A stretch of DNA of 64,000 nucleotides from Chrysochromulina parva (taxonomy: Eukaryota > Haptophyta > Prymnesiales > Chrysochromulinaceae): the NCBI GenBank assembly GCA_002887195.1, contig PJAB01000003.1, positions 1 to 64,000 on the forward strand. The letters are read 5' to 3'. Positions within the stretch are counted from its first letter, which is position 1. Every line of letters begins with the position of its first letter. The notes below the pieces were generated by a model. That model did no database searches. It saw nothing but the letters and a program-made list of their open reading frames with translations, and was not told the DNA's origin. Position numbers and translations under genes: made by a program. Below, piece by piece: positions 43,931-53,583 of the stretch.

Positions 43931-45883
43931 TCACTTTTGGCATTGCTGCTCCACGCGATCGCACGCCCCGAGCCACGCAGTCACCCGCTCTGGATCCAGC
44001 CCTGAGGTGAGGTCCGAGTCATGCGCCGCGAACATGAGACTCGATAGGCCCAGGTCGCGCCCGAACTGAATGAGCATCTGAGCTCCTTCATCCGCCACCT
44101 CTTCACAGCCATCTGCGGCAGCCCAGTTGAGTTCGTTGCAGAGCCCAGCCAGCAGCAGCTGTGCCGCTTCGCTCCCGTTACACGCGCCACGGGCACCCGT
44201 CGGCAGCATGGCAGTCGCATATGCCAATCTCAGCGTCTCTTTCATTGCAGCCAAAGCCATCTGAAGCTCGGACTCACTCGCCTTGCCGAGCCTGCGCGTC
44301 GGTGGTTCAGCGGTTTGAGGCTCGTCAGTCCGCACGCGCTTGCTTGGGCGAATACCGCCCGTCTCCTTGGTCATCCTTGCCATCATCTGCCCCAAATCAC
44401 CGCTGCGGGGTTTGCTTGCGGGTGCCTCGGCTGGTGCCTTGCCGCTCACGCCCTTGTACCATGCCGGGACCTTCTCTGGCGAGAACTTAGTGGCTGGCGG
44501 CGCGGCGGCAACGCGAGCCGGCAGCGCTCGGCTGCTTCCACTGCCGCCTCCAGCGCCAGAGCCTGCCGCCGCGCTGCTGAGCGTGCCAACGGACACGCCC
44601 ATGCCCCGTAGCTTGCTCGGCTCGATGCTCACCTCGCGGAGCATCTTGGTAACTTCCCGGGCAATCAGTGCCTTGTCGTTGGTAGCGGAGGGCAGTGTGA
44701 TGGAGCGCGAGATGTGGTCACACATCCCGTGGCCCATCGACCCTTTTCGTGGGCCTGTGGACTCGGCGCCCTCCATGGCGCGCCACAGCTTGAGTGTAAG
44801 GTGCTTGCCGCGATACCCGTGCGCAGCGAGCCTCGAGCCCACCTCCTCACCCAGCTGCCGGCCAAACGATTCCGCCTCCTCGGCGGTGGCAAAGCGCACG
44901 CCCCAGCTCGACTGCGCGCCAATCGACTTGCGAGTTGGCCGGGCTTCCCACTGTCGGTTGTCGGTGGCGTCGGCGTATCCGCGTAGCGTGGCGCTCACTT
45001 TGGGGCCTAGGGCGTCACGAATGCGGCCGGCATCGGCCGCGCGCAACTCGCCACACGTTCTCACGCCGATCGCCTCGAGCTTCTGCGCAATGTGATAGCC
45101 AACGCCAGGAAGCTCTCTCACAGACTCGTCCGTGAGCAGCGTGCGCCCTTCGGCGACGGAGTGCAGCGCGTGGAGGCCGTCGGGCTTGGCACGCTTGGTG
45201 GCAACGCGGGCGAGCAGTCGGTTGGGGCCGATGCCGATGCTGGCGACGCAGCCCGTCTGGGTACGGATGGTCTCACGCAGGTTGGCCGCGGTGGCTTCGG
45301 GGCTTCCAAGTGCGGACAAGTCGGCATAGCACTCGTCGACTGACACGCCCATCACATGCGGCGTGACGGCGAAGACGGCGCGATACATGACCTCCGCAAT
45401 CTCCTCGTAGCGTTCGAACTCGTATGGCATCGTGATAAGTGACGGACAGAGCTCTTTCGCTTGACTGCCCCACATGCCGTTGCGCACACCAAAGGCCCGC
45501 GCTGCGTAGTTGGCAGACGCGATCTCGGCATTGCCATCGGACCATGCGACAGCGACCGGAAGGCCCTCGAGTTCCGGCCGTCCCGCTACGGCGACCGAGG
45601 CAAAGAAGCAGTCCATGTCGATGTGCGCAATCACCCGAGTGCACCCCGGTGCCAACTGAACCAGTGGCGGCGGCGGCGGCATTGTCTCAAGAATGCGTTG
45701 GTAGCGATCCTTCCAGCTGCCAATGTAGTGTAGGCGTGAAGCGCCCATGAACTCCGAGATGAAGCTGTCATTCTCTCGCGACGTGCGGTGCGGCCCCTGA
45801 AGCTGCGGCATACCGCGGCGTGCCTCCGTAGCCACGCGCCGGGCGGCTGCGAGGCGCGAGGCGCTGAAGGTGGCCTCGGCCAT
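43931..45883 (-). CDS. REV1: REV1 translesion DNA polymerase, lacking BRCT
   Basis: A 650-residue Y-family polymerase. The N-terminal SFISEFMGASRLHYIGSW block is specific to REV1. The palm has HIDMDCFFASV (about residue 88) and SVDECYADL (about 181), which carry the metal-binding carboxylates; AEIASANYAARAFGVRNGMW and CPSLITMPYEF are fingers blocks. The little-finger region follows (to about 430), then a disordered linker. The last 100 residues may be the REV1 C-terminal interaction domain. REV1 inserts dCMP opposite lesions and recruits Pol zeta and other Y-polymerases. The usual N-terminal BRCT domain is absent; it may be truly lost or in an unseen 5' exon. Confidence 0.88.
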   Translation of the reverse strand: MAEATFSASRLAAARRVATEARRGMPQLQGPHRTSRENDSFISEFMGASRLHYIGSWKDRYQRILETMPPPPPLVQLAPGCTRVIAHIDMDCFFASVAVAGRPELEGLPVAVAWSDGNAEIASANYAARAFGVRNGMWGSQAKELCPSLITMPYEFERYEEIAEVMYRAVFAVTPHVMGVSVDECYADLSALGSPEATAANLRETIRTQTGCVASIGIGPNRLLARVATKRAKPDGLHALHSVAEGRTLLTDESVRELPGVGYHIAQKLEAIGVRTCGELRAADAGRIRDALGPKVSATLRGYADATDNRQWEARPTRKSIGAQSSWGVRFATAEEAESFGRQLGEEVGSRLAAHGYRGKHLTLKLWRAMEGAESTGPRKGSMGHGMCDHISRSITLPSATNDKALIAREVTKMLREVSIEPSKLRGMGVSVGTLSSAAAGSGAGGGSGSSRALPARVAAAPPATKFSPEKVPAWYKGVSGKAPAEAPASKPRSGDLGQMMARMTKETGGIRPSKRVRTDEPQTAEPPTRRLGKASESELQMALAAMKETLRLAYATAMLPTGARGACNGSEAAQLLLAGLCNELNWAAADGCEEVADEGAQMLIQFGRDLGLSSLMFAAHDSDLTSGLDPERVTAWLGACDRVEQQCQK

Positions 45884-46263: not shown

Positions 46264-49200
46264 TCATCGCTTCGCCGCCTTAGCAGCAAGTACGAGCCCC
46301 GAGACCACCGCAAGGCTGCTGGCGGCCACAAGGCCTCCGAGGAAGGCACTCACAGCCGACAGCTTCTCTTCCTCGAGTCTCCGCTGGCGCATCGGGCTCG
46401 GCAGAACCGAAGCGTTGCCATCCAACGTGGATGGCTGCTCGGTCGGCGGCGCACGGCGCGCGTTGGCAGGTTGCCCGGCCGCGATGACCGTCTTGCCCGT
46501 TGGCGAGAGAAGGTCGATAGGGCCCGTGACGGGCGTCACCTGCAGCCGATCTAGGCCCTTTGCCAACACATGGTTCGCTGCTTCGAGGAGAGCCTCGTCC
46601 GAGTCCACCACGATTCGATCGCCGTCATCGTCCGTGTACACGATGCCGCGCAGATCGTCGACGTGACCTTCGAGCTTGGCGGCGAGCGCGGCTTGGAGTG
46701 GTGACCACCCATCGGCGGGCGTGCAGTGCACCCGGTAGAAATGACCTTGCTCGTCCTGCAGCTTGATGAGGAGCATGCCCACGCGCCTCGACTTGGGACT
46801 CTCAAACGACGCGGCCCGGACGATGCGGCGCGGCAGGGCGGCGAGCGGCCGAGCGGCCACTCGGCCATCGGGCGATTTGAGTGGCGAGCGGCCGCAGACC
46901 ATCGAGATCGAGTCCTCGGGCCGGATGTGCATGCTGTCGTAATCCCCCTCCCTCTCGCGCCGTCCCCACTTGACAGGGCTGCCGAAGGCACCGAGGCTGC
47001 CGATGACCGAGCCCTCATCGTCCTCGGTCGCGACCACCGAGCCTGGTGGGCGGTGGGCGGCGGAGCTTTCATCGAGCGCGGCCGCGGCGCCCCAGAACGC
47101 GTGCAGCTGCTGCGCGTCAGCTGAGCGCTCGACGTGAGCGACACTCGCCTGCACCAGCTGGAGCACGTCGAGGAGGCACGTGGGTTGCTGCGTGCTTGGA
47201 TCGAGGAGCAACACATGGCTACAACGTTCCGCCTGCAGCGAGTGGAGCGCATCGATGACCGAGCAATCCGCTGAAGTGATGAATGGCCCCTCGCCCGTGC
47301 ACACGCTGCTCACCGTCGCGGCACCGAGCACCACAGCATCCAGCTGAGCGTCGCTGATCACCGAGGGCAGTAGGGTACGCGGCGTGAGCAGCTCGTACCG
47401 CACGCCGTCCGCGGCGACTGCGGCGGCGCAGCGCTCGACGAGCACGGCCGTAACGCCCGGCAGGCTCAAAGCGGTCGCCGCATCACGTACGGTCGCATGA
47501 TATGGAATGACGGCCGGCGGTTGCACGGCGAGGCTACCCAGGCTAGGGGCGAGCAGCGAGCGAAGCGCCGGCGCCAGCACGTCGACGTTCGAAGCTCCAG
47601 CGCCGCGGCTCACCGCATCGAGCAGCGCCTCGCCCGCAGCCTGCGCCCGTTCGGCGAGCACGAGCACGTCAAAGAGGCAGCGCTTCATGTCGAGGAGCGC
47701 CGGCGCGCCGCCCGGCACATCCACCGGTAGGTGGCGGAAGCGGTGTGCTGTCATGAGAGTGAACGCATTCGCCGCTGGGTCGGACGTCGTCACTACGTGC
47801 GGATTGGCCGTCATGACGTCCGCAGCACGGCACGTGCGAGGATCCAGCCCCACCGCGATCACCTTGCGAGCGATGTCAGTAGCCGTCAGGATCCCGTAGC
47901 GCATCACCGAAGACACGCCTCCAGCTGTTGAGTCGCGAGGCACGAGGAGCGCGTCGGCGCGACCGTCCAGCATGCGCTGCGCCGCGTCGACGATCGTGGT
48001 CGTGGTCTCGACGCACACGGCCTTGGGGGGCTGGAGCTGCCCGACCGTCCGCCCGATCGCTGGCGCTGGCGGGAGAGGCGCCGCCGCTGCGTTGGCGCCC
48101 GCAGCTGTGGCCGCCGACAGGCTGCCAGTGGGCAGCATGGAGAGCGGCAAGATCGCGGGGAGGCATGCTGTGGCTGTCTCCGCCGCCGGTTGCTCAGCAT
48201 AAGCTTTCTCCGCAGCAGCATGTTCCACCTCCGCCCTGAAGGCCACCAGTTGTTCGGCCTCCGCCAGTCGTTCGGCTTCCGTCCTCTCCACCGCCAGTCG
48301 CTCTGCCTCCGCTGCAGCTGCTTCGGCCGCCAGCCGCATCGCCACCACCTTCTCCGCAGCCCGTCGCTTCGCCTCACGGGCCCAGAACTCAAACGCGCGC
48401 TGGCTCGTGCGTGCGCGGATGCGCTGCTCGCGCCCCGCGACCACAGCCCGACCGAGGCGCCACCCCGTCTGCAGGGTGCTTGCAGCGGCGCCCCGGGACC
48501 GTGCCATGTAGGCCCGTGCTGCCCGCTGCAAGGCGCGGCACATGGCGTGCTTGTACAAAATCGCCCACCGCTCGACCGAACGAGCGAGCGGCTGACGCAG
48601 GAAGACCTTGGTGTGCCCCACCTGCCACAGCGCCTGTGGCTGCCCGAGCGTGTACGCGAGCTCATCGGCCACCAAGCGCGACCTCTCAGCGAGCTCCTCC
48701 GCGCCCGCCTCGGTCGGGACATTCAGGGACGACGAGCGCGGGTGACGGATGAGCGGGGTGAAGCGAAACAGGAAGTCGCGAATGGACAGCCGGTACGCGA
48801 ACGACTCCTTGCGGATGCGCACAGCCTCCATCATGCCCGCACAGCGCAGCTGCAGCGTGCACGAGGCCTCGTCGAGCACCCACGGCTTGCGCTCACTGTT
48901 GCTCTTGATGCACCGCACGTATGCACAAGAGTTCCTTGCGGGACGTTCCTCATAGGGCGCTGCATCCTGCAACGCGCCCGACTCCGGCGCGGCGATGGCC
49001 TCGATGAGCTCGTGCAGCTGCGTGCGGAACTGCTCGCCCACAGATTCCTGGCGCAGCTTCCCCTTGCGTTTGCGCGCGAACGACGGGCTCCGCCGAATGA
49101 CGTGCTCGGCCGCAGCAGTCGTCGGGACGGCGGCCGCAGCCTCTGGGAAGCCGCCGAGGACGAGGTGCAGGTTGGCCTTCAGCCACGGGTTGGTTGCCTC

Positions 49201-51012
49201 GGCGAGGAGCTCCTGCACGTCGGGCCCGAGGCTCTCAAAATTCTTGCGCGAGAAGCCGCGCACGTCGTAGCACACCTCGCCAGCGTAGTGCACGAGGGCG
49301 AACGACGTGGCCGAATGCAGCTTGGGGCGCACGTAGCTTGGGTGGCCCAGCTTTGAGGCGAAGGCGGTGTGGAGCTGCTGAAGCATCTGGGTGTCGGCCT
49401 CCTCGCCGCCCGTACGCCACGTGGCATCGTCGAGGCTCGCAAGAATCCCCGGAACGCCGCGGGGCCGCCCCTCGATGAGCTCGAGGGTCGGTTGGTTGTC
49501 CACCCATTCGATCTCCTTCCACTCGATTCCCTCGCGCAAGTACTCTTTCTGTTCGAGCTCGAAGATGTGCAAGTTGAAGAGGTGCTGCAGCTTCTCGTTT
49601 GCGTAGTTGATCAGGAGCTGCTCGAACGAGTTGGTGCCGAGCGACTCGAACCCGTAGATGTCGAGCACCGCCACGCAGCTCCGTCGTGGCTCGCTCGTCG
49701 GGGCGGTGCAGGGCTCGCCGCCGCCCCTGATGGTCGAATTGAGCTGCTCGACGAGCCACTCGAACACGCCGTTGTACAGCGCCCTCGCTAGGGCGTCACG
49801 AGAGTCGTGCGCCTGCTGGATGCTCTGCTCCTTGAGCACGACGTTCTGGTTGCGCACAGCCAGCCGGCGACGGCAGATGGCCGTTGAGAGAGCGGCGGGC
49901 GTCACGCCGAGCAGGGCGGCGAGTGTCGACGAGGCGTCCTCGTCGTTTGGTGCGCATCCTTCGCCGCTCACACTGGGGCTGCCTTGGCCGCTGGCAGCCG
50001 CCTTTTTGGTTGCAAAGGTGAGGTTACCCAGATGGAGGACGGCGCTGAGGATCAGCCATAGCTGCTCGCGCGCCTCGGCAGCCACGCCGATGACATCGAG
50101 GCACGTCGAGGTGTTGCCAAAGGTGATGACGGCCGCGCTCACCTCGGCGCCCCCCCAGCCGCTCGGATCACTGGAAAGATAGGTCAGGTCCTTCGGCTCT
50201 TTCCACGGAAGTGCCTGCTGCAGCGCCGGTGGCAGCCGTGGACTGGCCGCGAGGAGCTGGTACAGGATGTGGAAGTTACGCTCGCCTCGCGGAGGCGTCG
50301 AGATGCGGGTTCGCTCAAGCAGGTAGTTTATGATGCGTGCGCCGGCGATGCGCGAGCCACTGCCGCCGGCGAAGCTGATCTCGATGAGCTTCCCGAAGCG
50401 CGACGAGTTGTCGTTGCGCAGTGTGCGCGCGTTGCCGAAAGCCTCGAGCAGAGGGTTGGCCTGCAGCACACGCTCGCGCAGTATGGCGGCACGCGCATCG
50501 AGATCCACTAAATCGCCTGACGCAGCGACGAGATACGTGAGGATGATCTTGGTCGCCTCCGTCTTGCCCGCACCACTCTCACCCGAGATGACGATGGTAT
50601 GCCGCGTTCCAGCGGCTGCGCGCTCCATTGCTGCATGCGCGCTGGCAGCAGCCTCGTAAAGATGGGGTGGCAGAGGATCGGCGCCGCTCTCACTGCCCGT
50701 GGCGCGTGCGCGGTAGCGCTTCATGACGTCGGTACTATACAGGGTCGGCGACCAACAGTACGGGTTCAATGCGAGCGTGATCGTGCCCGCTCGTGTGTAC
50801 ACCCGGTTCTTCTCAGTGAAGCGCGAGGCGAGAGACGCAACGATGCTCTGTTCGGAGAGATCGTCGAGGTGCAAGAGATTGTCCGTGGAGAGTGGCGCGA
50901 GAGCCTCGCGAGTCGCCTTGCTGGCCGCCAGCGAACGGGCGAGCAGCACGGGAGAGTTTCTCTTCTCCATTCGATTCGTCTCCTCCATTTGAATTCGCGA
51001 TTTCACACTCAT
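46264..51012 (-). CDS. Myosin motor fused to four CBS domains, PB1 and a tail anchor
   Basis: A single 1582-residue frame. The motor (about 50-780) has P-loop GESGAGKTEATK (near 144), switch I NDNSSRFGK and switch II DIYGFE followed by NSFEQLLINYANEKLQ, so all nucleotide motifs are intact. One or two IQ-like helices (about 815-880) and a short Ala/Glu coiled coil follow. Residues about 996-1300 are two CBS pairs; the block VMTANPHVVTTSDPAANAF, RFRHLPVDV, LLDMKRCLFD is near-diagnostic of plant/fungal CBSCBSPB proteins. A PB1-type domain (about 1412-1495) and a C-terminal membrane helix (about 1553-1577) complete that architecture. Inferred role: an actin motor anchored in a membrane and controlled by adenine nucleotides bound at CBS sites. 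Confidence 0.9.
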   Translation of the reverse strand: MSVKSRIQMEETNRMEKRNSPVLLARSLAASKATREALAPLSTDNLLHLDDLSEQSIVASLASRFTEKNRVYTRAGTITLALNPYCWSPTLYSTDVMKRYRARATGSESGADPLPPHLYEAAASAHAAMERAAAGTRHTIVISGESGAGKTEATKIILTYLVAASGDLVDLDARAAILRERVLQANPLLEAFGNARTLRNDNSSRFGKLIEISFAGGSGSRIAGARIINYLLERTRISTPPRGERNFHILYQLLAASPRLPPALQQALPWKEPKDLTYLSSDPSGWGGAEVSAAVITFGNTSTCLDVIGVAAEAREQLWLILSAVLHLGNLTFATKKAAASGQGSPSVSGEGCAPNDEDASSTLAALLGVTPAALSTAICRRRLAVRNQNVVLKEQSIQQAHDSRDALARALYNGVFEWLVEQLNSTIRGGGEPCTAPTSEPRRSCVAVLDIYGFESLGTNSFEQLLINYANEKLQHLFNLHIFELEQKEYLREGIEWKEIEWVDNQPTLELIEGRPRGVPGILASLDDATWRTGGEEADTQMLQQLHTAFASKLGHPSYVRPKLHSATSFALVHYAGEVCYDVRGFSRKNFESLGPDVQELLAEATNPWLKANLHLVLGGFPEAAAAVPTTAAAEHVIRRSPSFARKRKGKLRQESVGEQFRTQLHELIEAIAAPESGALQDAAPYEERPARNSCAYVRCIKSNSERKPWVLDEASCTLQLRCAGMMEAVRIRKESFAYRLSIRDFLFRFTPLIRHPRSSSLNVPTEAGAEELAERSRLVADELAYTLGQPQALWQVGHTKVFLRQPLARSVERWAILYKHAMCRALQRAARAYMARSRGAAASTLQTGWRLGRAVVAGREQRIRARTSQRAFEFWAREAKRRAAEKVVAMRLAAEAAAAEAERLAVERTEAERLAEAEQLVAFRAEVEHAAAEKAYAEQPAAETATACLPAILPLSMLPTGSLSAATAAGANAAAAPLPPAPAIGRTVGQLQPPKAVCVETTTTIVDAAQRMLDGRADALLVPRDSTAGGVSSVMRYGILTATDIARKVIAVGLDPRTCRAADVMTANPHVVTTSDPAANAFTLMTAHRFRHLPVDVPGGAPALLDMKRCLFDVLVLAERAQAAGEALLDAVSRGAGASNVDVLAPALRSLLAPSLGSLAVQPPAVIPYHATVRDAATALSLPGVTAVLVERCAAAVAADGVRYELLTPRTLLPSVISDAQLDAVVLGAATVSSVCTGEGPFITSADCSVIDALHSLQAERCSHVLLLDPSTQQPTCLLDVLQLVQASVAHVERSADAQQLHAFWGAAAALDESSAAHRPPGSVVATEDDEGSVIGSLGAFGSPVKWGRREREGDYDSMHIRPEDSISMVCGRSPLKSPDGRVAARPLAALPRRIVRAASFESPKSRRVGMLLIKLQDEQGHFYRVHCTPADGWSPLQAALAAKLEGHVDDLRGIVYTDDDGDRIVVDSDEALLEAANHVLAKGLDRLQVTPVTGPIDLLSPTGKTVIAAGQPANARRAPPTEQPSTLDGNASVLPSPMRQRRLEEEKLSAVSAFLGGLVAASSLAVVSGLVLAAKAAKR

Positions 51013-51132: not shown

Positions 51133-53583
51133 CTACGACTCCGACTGGGCTGCCGCGCGTTTCGCCTGGTGTCTCTCGGCACGACGTGCCTTGCGCTCGG
51201 AGCGGTCCGCCTTGCGCTCGGCTTTGTCAAAGCCGAAGGCGCTGTACAGCCCATCGCTCATAAAGGCGCCCTTGTACTCGACCTTATCACGCACAGCGCA
51301 CACAAAGAGCGTGTCAAGCGCGCACGAGAAGACGAGTGCAAACGAGCTCGCGATCACGTAGGCCGCAAGGGCCGTGATGAGCGCGGGGTACATGGGCTCA
51401 GGGTTGCCGAGCCGCTCGAGGTGCGCGTGGCAAATCCACGTACAGAAGACGGTGATGCCGGCGGTCTGGATGAGCCCGAGTACCACGCGCACAAACGTGT
51501 TGAGCGCGAGCTGCGCGGGCTGTGAGGTGATGAGCCCGAACGTTTTGATGCACGCGCTGCAGAAGCTCGAGCCCTGGAGCGCCACGTAGATGTAGCAGTA
51601 GTTGGTGATGAACTTGAGCGACTTTTCGAAGCAGTACAGGCAGCACTTGACGCATTTGATGGCCAACATGAGCGCCGCGTTCGTCTCCTGCAGCTTTTTC
51701 GTCTGCCTGTCGACAAGCTCGAGCAGGATGCGCACGAGCTGCACGAGCGCGATGAGAAAGGAGCCAAAGAGGATCGTGCCCAGGTGGTAGCGCACCACGC
51801 GCGTGAGCGATTGAACAAGCGGCGCGCGCGACCGCAGCTTGGCGTCGCGCCGGAAAAAGTACCAGTCGGAAAAGGCGCCCGAGAGCGTTGTCCATCCGAT
51901 GTTCCGGACCGTCTCCATCGTCCACAGGATGCCGAAGAGGAAGTAGACGTACGCCCCGTTTTGGACCGATAGGTAGGAGCCCAAATCGATCGTGACCGGC
52001 AAGTCCTCGTTGATGACGAGCGCTTGGGAATAGGTCGAGTGCGCAGTCAGAGCGGAGCTCGTGGTGAAGTGGGCGAGCTCGAGGTGCGCCGTGCCAAGGA
52101 AGAGCAACCCGACCACCAAGTATATGAGCAGCGGGAGCTGTGCACCGAGCACTGCGAGCGGCAAGGCCATCGCAGCGGGCTGGTCCGCCAGCACGCCGCA
52201 TGCCTCCTTGATGAGGGCGACAGCAATGCGGATCTTCTTGCGCGCGAGACACATGGCGACCATGTAGAGGACAGCGACGGTCAGGGCGACCCACGCGCTG
52301 ATCGTGTACAGCATCGGGTTCTCGGAGGCGGCGGCATTGCTTAGCTCATTGACTTCAGTGGGCACGAGCCTCACCAAGGCCCCAGCGGCCTGGTTCGCTT
52401 GCTCGGCTGTCGCGGCGAAGGCGGACGCGAGGGCGTTCGCCGTCGCACACTCGTCGGACGGGAAGCCGCTGCCGTTCACGTCGCCCGAGCCAAAATCCCC
52501 TCTCACGTCGCCACTGCTGGCGTTGACGCACCTACTGCCAAGCGTGCTGTTGATGCCACCAAGCTGGCTTCCAAGCTGGTCTAAGACGGCTGCGAGCTCG
52601 CCCGAGATGGCAAAGAGGTAGAACGCGAGTGCGAAGAGCGCAATGCCGATGCACACAATTGCCAAGTAAACGACCACGCCTGCCAAGAAGCGCAGCAGAA
52701 GCAGCCAAGCAAGGCCGAGGAAGACGGGTAAGCCTAGGCCATATCCGATGATCACGTCTCTTGCATCGAGGATCGCATCCACGAGGCGCTGGCCGGCGCC
52801 CATGTAGCTAGAGAGCTTATCCGTGAGCGGCGACGGACGCATAGGTGCGAGTTGGTCCACTTCGACGTGCTGGTACTTGACCTCGCACCGAAACTGATCC
52901 GCCACAGAGTTGATCAGCCAGAGCGATGGGAACCGTTCGTCGCATACCATCCACGGATTCGTCACGTTGTTGCACGGCGGGTAGACGCACTTGTCGGGAT
53001 CGCGCGACGCTGCGGTGCCGCTGGTCGGTATGCATCTATTCATCACGGAGATCGTGGGCAGGACGGCGAAGTAAAACGCCGAGCCGCCCGCCTCAGTGTA
53101 CTGCTCCACCGTACCGTAATCGTGCACCATGCACCGGCTGGCGTCGCCGAAGCATACGGTAGGGTCGCGGACGGAAGGGCAAGACGCGACACACAGGCCG
53201 TAAAAGACCACCTTCCACGGCTGGACCGCAGCAACGTCGGCCTGCTCGAGCGCGTCCTGGTCCATCCGCGGATAGAAGGTTTTGGGCAGATGAGACATTC
53301 TGCCGCGGCCACACCGGTTACCGAGGTAGTCGGCTCCGAACATGATTGAATATGGGTCGCCGACCGTGCACGAGAGGTATGTGAGATAAGCCATTCCCAA
53401 GGCGAAGGCCACAAAGAGGATGAGGCAGCAAAAATCCGTGCAATGCCTCCGGCGCAGCGCCTTCGGAGCGTTTTCGGGCCCGATGTCCGTGTCTTCGGCC
53501 TTGTCACCCCCATCTTCAGGCGCGACCCGGCTCCGCGAGCCGTCGGCCGGCATTGGATGGCCGTTTGCTTCTGTACTCTTCAT
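51133..53583 (-). CDS. SLC44 choline-transporter-like protein
   Basis: 816 residues with a cytosolic N-terminus, a first membrane helix (about 52-72) and a large Cys-containing loop (about 75-265; CVASCPS, DKCVYPPCNN). A block of about nine further helices follows from residue 275 to 770. The C-terminal signature of the CTL/SLC44 family is present: CVKCCLYCFEKSLKFI, then NYCYIYVALQGSSFC. The charged tail ends in Lys/Arg-rich coiled coil. The family moves choline or ethanolamine, or related amines, across plasma or mitochondrial membranes; substrate here is an inference from family. Start is the only ATG before the first helix. It lies 120 bp from the myosin gene, same strand, and is divergent from a plastid gene (120 bp between starts). 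Confidence 0.9.
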   Translation of the reverse strand: MKSTEANGHPMPADGSRSRVAPEDGGDKAEDTDIGPENAPKALRRRHCTDFCCLILFVAFALGMAYLTYLSCTVGDPYSIMFGADYLGNRCGRGRMSHLPKTFYPRMDQDALEQADVAAVQPWKVVFYGLCVASCPSVRDPTVCFGDASRCMVHDYGTVEQYTEAGGSAFYFAVLPTISVMNRCIPTSGTAASRDPDKCVYPPCNNVTNPWMVCDERFPSLWLINSVADQFRCEVKYQHVEVDQLAPMRPSPLTDKLSSYMGAGQRLVDAILDARDVIIGYGLGLPVFLGLAWLLLLRFLAGVVVYLAIVCIGIALFALAFYLFAISGELAAVLDQLGSQLGGINSTLGSRCVNASSGDVRGDFGSGDVNGSGFPSDECATANALASAFAATAEQANQAAGALVRLVPTEVNELSNAAASENPMLYTISAWVALTVAVLYMVAMCLARKKIRIAVALIKEACGVLADQPAAMALPLAVLGAQLPLLIYLVVGLLFLGTAHLELAHFTTSSALTAHSTYSQALVINEDLPVTIDLGSYLSVQNGAYVYFLFGILWTMETVRNIGWTTLSGAFSDWYFFRRDAKLRSRAPLVQSLTRVVRYHLGTILFGSFLIALVQLVRILLELVDRQTKKLQETNAALMLAIKCVKCCLYCFEKSLKFITNYCYIYVALQGSSFCSACIKTFGLITSQPAQLALNTFVRVVLGLIQTAGITVFCTWICHAHLERLGNPEPMYPALITALAAYVIASSFALVFSCALDTLFVCAVRDKVEYKGAFMSDGLYSAFGFDKAERKADRSERKARRAERHQAKRAAAQSES

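Follow-up and report, generated by a model that had tools for sequence, protein, structure and literature searches.

The window, a 64,000-nucleotide stretch of DNA, encodes on its minus strand a protein in which a full myosin motor is followed by four CBS domains, a PB1 domain and a hydrophobic helix close to the C-terminus. With a probability of roughly 85%, we take this gene to encode a myosin of the class XXIX type. Such a protein would be an ATPase motor working on actin and held on a membrane through a C-terminal tail anchor, and its CBS quad and PB1 would lie between the lever and the membrane; 'class XXIX-type' is assigned here from architecture and not via published class XXIX accessions. 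Judged from sequence, the window protein and the nine relatives described below (together, the window type) form a shorter-tailed sister group of the class XXIX motors.

Class XXIX myosins are stramenopile proteins, from diatoms and oomycetes, and the account of Odronitz and Kollmar (2007), in the part drawn on here (PMC2375034), gives them IQ motifs, three by the definition of the class, short coiled-coil regions, as many as 18 CBS domains, a PB1 domain and a transmembrane domain at the C-terminus. The first-pass annotation had stated that no described myosin class has a tail of this sort; that statement is contradicted by the same part of PMC2375034, where the motor-CBS-PB1-transmembrane layout has stood since 2007. 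The likeness to the window protein extends to the motor, the CBS domains, PB1 and the C-terminal hydrophobic helix, which occur in the same order, and the motors of the two types are sister groups. A new myosin class was considered and rejected on the motor tree and the 2007 definition.

Domain architecture of the window protein

The features of the gene are collected in Table 1. The myosin frame is directly preceded by a reading frame for a choline-transporter-like membrane protein (51133–53583, minus strand; PF04515, 224 bits) and directly followed downstream by one for a Y-family (IMS) DNA polymerase (43931–45883, minus strand; IMS domain, 146 bits).

Table 1. Features of the myosin gene, with positions in the window and residues of the encoded protein
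Feature	Residues	Position	Strand	Basis or remark
Whole reading frame	1582 aa + stop	46264..51012	-	1582 codons from ATG, one uninterrupted frame
Myosin motor	43–806	48595..50886	-	Pfam Myosin_head, 553 bits
Lever, one or two IQ-like stretches	828–857	48442..48531	-	loose pattern and sequence reading
Glu/Arg/Ala-rich stretch	866–945	48178..48417	-	composition; inferred
One CBS quad (two Bateman modules)	988–1299	47116..48051	-	envelope of profile match
GILTATD, canonical T-x-x-D nucleotide-type site of CBS1	1040–1046	47875..47895	-	
RPEDS, short motif between CBS quad and PB1	1364–1368	46909..46923	-	
PB1 domain	1417–1482	46567..46764	-	basic Lys and acidic Y-x-D-x-D-x-D (OPCA-type) motif
C-terminal hydrophobic helix	1557–1575	46288..46344	-	a short tail ending in AAKR comes after it

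The Pfam match spans the motor from end to end, and the P-loop (GESGAGKT), switch I (NDNSSRFGK) and switch II (DIYGFE) are each intact, which makes it likely that the protein is an active motor. The same switch II sequence is found in the window type and in all 15 class XXIX-type motors. Among 26 myosin loci of the same genome, DIFGFE occurs in 16, DIYGFE in one (L053) and neither in nine.

Beyond the motor, the first IQ-like stretch corresponds to a single loose pattern match (residues 828–838) and the second was recognised by reading the sequence, while a Pfam scan of the protein listed no IQ family at E ≤ 1. The loose pattern was matched in one of six window-type proteins (P0001, one match) and in none of the other five, versus four of five class XXIX-type proteins examined, and three IQ motifs were seen in none of the proteins of either type. 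IQ motifs appear weaker in the window type, and the IQ-like helices proposed in the first-pass annotation are weak candidates. As regards the coiled coils of class XXIX, residues 806–985 were examined for composition only; the Glu/Arg/Ala-rich stretch within them probably forms a single helix or a short coiled coil.

The tail is less readily recognised from one sequence. Pfam passes a single CBS stretch above cut-off (residues 1064–1099, 38 bits), PB1 reaches 15.8 bits against a cut-off of 23.6, and NCBIfam listed nothing for the protein. With no IQ family either, the four CBS domains, PB1 and IQ-like helices would be unsafe to call from this sequence alone, and it is the relatives that settle the CBS and PB1 assignments.

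The CBS quad was identified with a profile of 300 model positions built from six quads of P0010 and P0011, two proteins in which Pfam finds 12 and 10 CBS stretches, respectively, in regular arrays that amount to three quads each at about 300 residues per quad. The profile matches residues 988–1264 of the window protein over model positions 1–273, with 94.6 bits for the protein, and the best of 200 shuffled tails reached 5.1 bits. The protein therefore has one quad with four CBS positions, as the first-pass annotation had proposed. CBS1 and CBS2 are clear and CBS3 and CBS4 are divergent. In a search of solved structures, the best matches to the tail fell in CBS1–2: 4fry at E 1.7e-6, and 5nmu, a chain of CBS-CP12, at E 4.1e-5.

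Across the ten window-type proteins, the window's own included, CBS1 invariably carries G-I-[LV]-T-x-T-D, and this is the only canonical T-x-x-D of the type. CBS2 reads L-[DN]-hydrophobic, as does CBS4, with L-D. CBS3 reads T-P-[RK] and lacks the Asp in 10/10, unlike the stramenopile proteins, where GIFGFKD or GIFTPKD occurs at least once in 10 of the 12 examined (neither is present in P0099 and P0100). The meaning attached here to the T-x-x-D of CBS domains, and to the motifs of PB1 below, is that known for the respective families.

Although PB1 is below threshold in the window protein, it scores above the cut-off in all four of the other window-type proteins scanned (P0004, P0008, P0009 and P0012), and the PB1 Lys together with Y-x-D-[DE]-[DE]-[GS]-D is present in 10/10, counting the window's own, so the claim of a PB1 domain is upheld. 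Precomputed annotation of the eight relatives from the tail search lists PB1 (PF00564) in four; P0002 and P0003, the nearest to the window protein, are not among these. In the search of solved structures with the tail, the PB1 part reached only Cdc24, at a non-significant E of 0.6. Between the quad and PB1, P-E-D-S is invariant in two nine-row alignments (A1 and A2).

The hydrophobic 19-mer at residues 1557–1575 has a mean hydropathy of 2.13 and ends 7 residues before the terminus; it is probably a tail anchor. A corresponding 19-mer lies 4–11 residues from the C-terminus in all 28 proteins examined, with mean hydropathy of 1.58–3.08, values to be read in the light of a test that always yields a best 19-mer within the last 80 residues and that is borderline (1.58–1.85) in the class XXIX rows P0126 and P0128–P0130. 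Within the helix, F-L-G-G-L is invariant when P0002–P0009 are aligned to the window protein.

Relatives with the same fusion

Nine further proteins, encoded on other contigs, carry the same fusion of motor and tail. Eight were returned by a search with the tail (residues 980–1582), which scored the 7998 candidates with most shared words; all eight have both PF00063 and PF00571, and their tails are from 99% down to 35% identical to that of the window. The closest are P0002 (99% tail identity, on a contig of 10,990 bases) and P0003 (93%, on one of 41,603 bases). A second search, with the CBS region of P0008 as query, added P0012, which carries PF00063, PF00571 and PF00564. When the window protein and P0002–P0009 are aligned, invariant positions are spread across the CBS domains, the linker, PB1 and the helix at the C-terminus.

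The class XXIX-type proteins came from a search in which the end of P0010 was the query. Of 140 matches in total, 120 were listed, and 20 of these carry both PF00063 and PF00571; Thalassiosira, Epithemia and Nitzschia are among the named class XXIX-type entries in the matches listed. The remaining 100 of the 120 CBS entries, P0010 and P0011 among them, have no PF00063 in the gene model. For P0084 and P0097 the model retains only the end of a motor, so that some of the motor-less entries are probably truncated class XXIX models; others may be stand-alone proteins. Database names on class XXIX-type and multi-CBS PB1 proteins (P0063, P0016 and P0117, for example) are misleading: 'cystathionine beta synthase domain containing protein' or 'signal-transduction protein with cAMP-binding, CBS, and nucleotidyltransferase domain'.

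The window type is also distinguished from the class XXIX-type proteins by the extent of its tail. It has one CBS quad in all seven proteins counted, against two to four in the class XXIX-type proteins, and its full-length members run to 1498–1611 residues, compared with 2081–2731.

Phylogeny of the motor

The motor phylogeny called for in the first-pass annotation was carried out at two levels. In a quick tree of 44 rows (6 window type, 15 class XXIX-type and 23 paralogues from the same genome), the window and class XXIX-type motors together are split from the rest with SH-aLRT 100. In a careful tree of 36 rows (6, 10 and 20), the same two sets stand apart from the 20 paralogues with 100/100, placing the window motor as sister to those of class XXIX. 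The window type itself is supported at 100/100, and the class XXIX-type motors hold together at 94/90 with the window type outside. The outgroups in these trees are own-genome paralogues only, whose motors were excised using a profile made from those of the window type and of class XXIX type, so that the sister relation is stated relative to these and with the other named myosin classes absent.

Both trees leave out P0002 as a near copy of the window protein, P0005–P0007 together with P0013, P0062, P0103, P0117 and P0122 (five of the 20 motor-bearing entries) as having too little motor, and the own-genome loci L064, L065 and L066, which are incomplete or highly divergent. Also missing from the careful tree are L056, L057 and L063 for their long branches and P0022, P0048, P0096, P0099 and P0130 for speed; all eight are present in the quick tree, with the same split at SH-aLRT 100.

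Alternative groupings were rejected by AU tests. The window type could not be placed with L061, L005 and L051 (p 0.0017), with L001 and L059 (p 0.00005) or with L061 (p 0.0011), nor could the class XXIX-type motors with L061, L005 and L051 (p 0.0012). BLAST with the window motor is in line with the trees: none of the 26 paralogue loci of the same genome exceeds 370 bits, and every class XXIX-type motor but one (14 of 15) reaches 388–465. The one below, P0022 (254 bits), has a motor that lacks model positions 1–190.

Origin of the fusion and alternative explanations

The architecture could conceivably be an artefact, either of two adjacent genes fused in the reading or of an assembly join in the linker. 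The frame from 46264 to 51012 has no internal stop, and the recurrence of the fusion in nine further proteins, P0002 and P0003 included, at tail identities from 99% to 35% makes a join in the gene model or the assembly very unlikely; the class XXIX-type protein P0045, which derives from a transcriptome (MMETSP), also has motor and CBS together. Two genes or an assembly join were rejected because relatives carry the fusion, and the chance that an artefact underlies it is negligible. The one-frame order of motor, CBS, PB1 and C-terminal hydrophobic helix reported in the first-pass annotation is thus confirmed over 1582 open codons.

The gene might instead have been transferred from a stramenopile, or the contig might be a contaminant. 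The genome assembly (45 Mb, 2199 contigs) contains 58 light-harvesting-type matches and 58 myosin-motor stretches, many of them exons, and so appears to be that of an alga with many myosins. Two light-harvesting reading frames had no PDB match at E ≤ 1e-60, and at E ≤ 1e-20 one of them had 17, the best at 9.6e-47. A haptophyte host, as implied in the first-pass annotation, is compatible with the place of the window type next to the sampled stramenopile rows, although that place is no proof of it. The myosin tail is single-copy in this genome, as would suit a foreign gene: the only own-genome match to it at E ≤ 0.001 is a stand-alone protein, L011 (G000:C385:18439-19263). Against this, the window type forms a deep clade that lies beside the sampled class XXIX motors (94/90) and is not nested among them, its quads fall into three divergent sublineages, and its single quad (7/7 counted) and lack of the CBS3 Asp (10/10) set it apart. 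We regard transfer or contamination as unlikely. More improbable still is an independent fusion, in which a separate myosin class of this lineage gained a CBSCBSPB-type tail and converged on class XXIX. It would account for the separation of window-type and stramenopile-type quads into two clades (100/100) in trees drawn from selected entries of the class XXIX search, with the P0005 and P0007 pieces cut by a fixed offset that may miss part of CBS1, and for the contrast of one quad with two to four; a single origin is moreover not evident from the tail tree, which was sampled without stand-alone plant and fungal CBSCBSPB sequences. What speaks against it is the sister relation of the motors at 100/100, the rejection of the tried groupings with own paralogues, the PB1 and C-terminal helix common to both groups, and the position of L011, a single long branch that does not fall inside the window-type quads (100/99).

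Over a stretch of 144 residues, L011 and the window tail have 40% identity. L011 is a 547-residue frame that shares with the window tail the CBS quad and, by reading, a hydrophobic C-terminal part, and it differs in having no motor and no PB1 match. In the quad tree that includes it, L011 belongs to neither group, with support of 100/99 for the window type and 90/86 for the stramenopile quads without L011. Its place between them is that of an outgroup on one long branch, and we are unsure of the placement; L011 is possibly a relative of the source of the tail.

Within the class XXIX-type reading favoured here, the window type could be an early-diverging, minimal form of class XXIX outside the stramenopiles, with one quad, one canonical nucleotide site, a two-faced PB1 and a tail anchor, working as an energy-gated, self-clustering organelle motor; the fusion would then predate the split of the lineages and the quad would have multiplied later in stramenopiles. 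We offer this as a speculative proposal that is rather doubtful in its entirety.

Comparison with other tail architectures

The CBSCBSPB proteins of plants and Mug70 of fungi, compared by description only from the parts of PMC2694836 and PMC7051960 used here, also have CBS domains followed by PB1, as in the window tail. They have no myosin motor in these descriptions, in which CBS and one PB1 are the sole domains of a CBSCBSPB protein; the window protein has a full motor before its CBS and PB1. The available text of PMC2694836 never uses the word 'transmembrane', so that a membrane helix in these proteins stands as a suggestion of the first-pass annotation. Myosin-chitin synthases, fungal class XVII and the class-36 type of molluscs, likewise have a membrane part in the myosin tail, with tail domains unrelated to the CBS-PB1 tail as far as the parts of PMC3942036 and PMC5583752 consulted describe them. 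The main text of these two papers contains no mention of CBS, PB1 or XXIX, and that of PMC5378345 none of CBS, PB1 or class-29; in each case figures and supplements are outside the scope of the statement.

Possible mechanism and implications

By analogy with the families to which these domains belong, a mode of action can be sketched. The C-terminal helix would insert post-translationally into an organelle membrane. PB1, with both complementary faces, could join motors head-to-tail into clusters or recruit a partner that has a PB1 domain. Binding of an adenine ligand to CBS1 may alter how the CBS quad is shaped or paired and thereby tune clustering or autoinhibition, and the clustered motors would move or tether the organelle on actin.

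CBS modules like those of 4fry and CBS-CP12 bind adenine nucleotides, and other CBS modules are structural or bind SAM or Mg. That the window quad senses adenylates may fairly be proposed from its sequence. The fuller suggestion that CBS1 binds AMP, ADP or ATP and that the myosin is switched by the adenylate ratio is tentative, and the balance lies somewhat against it. It is consistent with the canonical T-x-x-D of CBS1 in all ten window-type proteins and with the match of CBS1–2 to 4fry and 5nmu, but the missing Asp of CBS3 (10/10), the L-[DN]-hydrophobic sequence of CBS2, with its L-D counterpart in CBS4, and the structural or SAM/Mg-binding roles of CBS modules elsewhere point the other way.

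The motor-CBS-PB1-membrane architecture was already known, and what is added is its minimal, one-quad form, which gives a myosin class that has been little studied a sister group with a short tail. The window type may be the simplest form of class XXIX, in which the role of CBS-PB1 tails on a motor would be easier to test. Should the motor be under the control of the CBS quad, the energy state of the cell would act on organelle transport inside one polypeptide.
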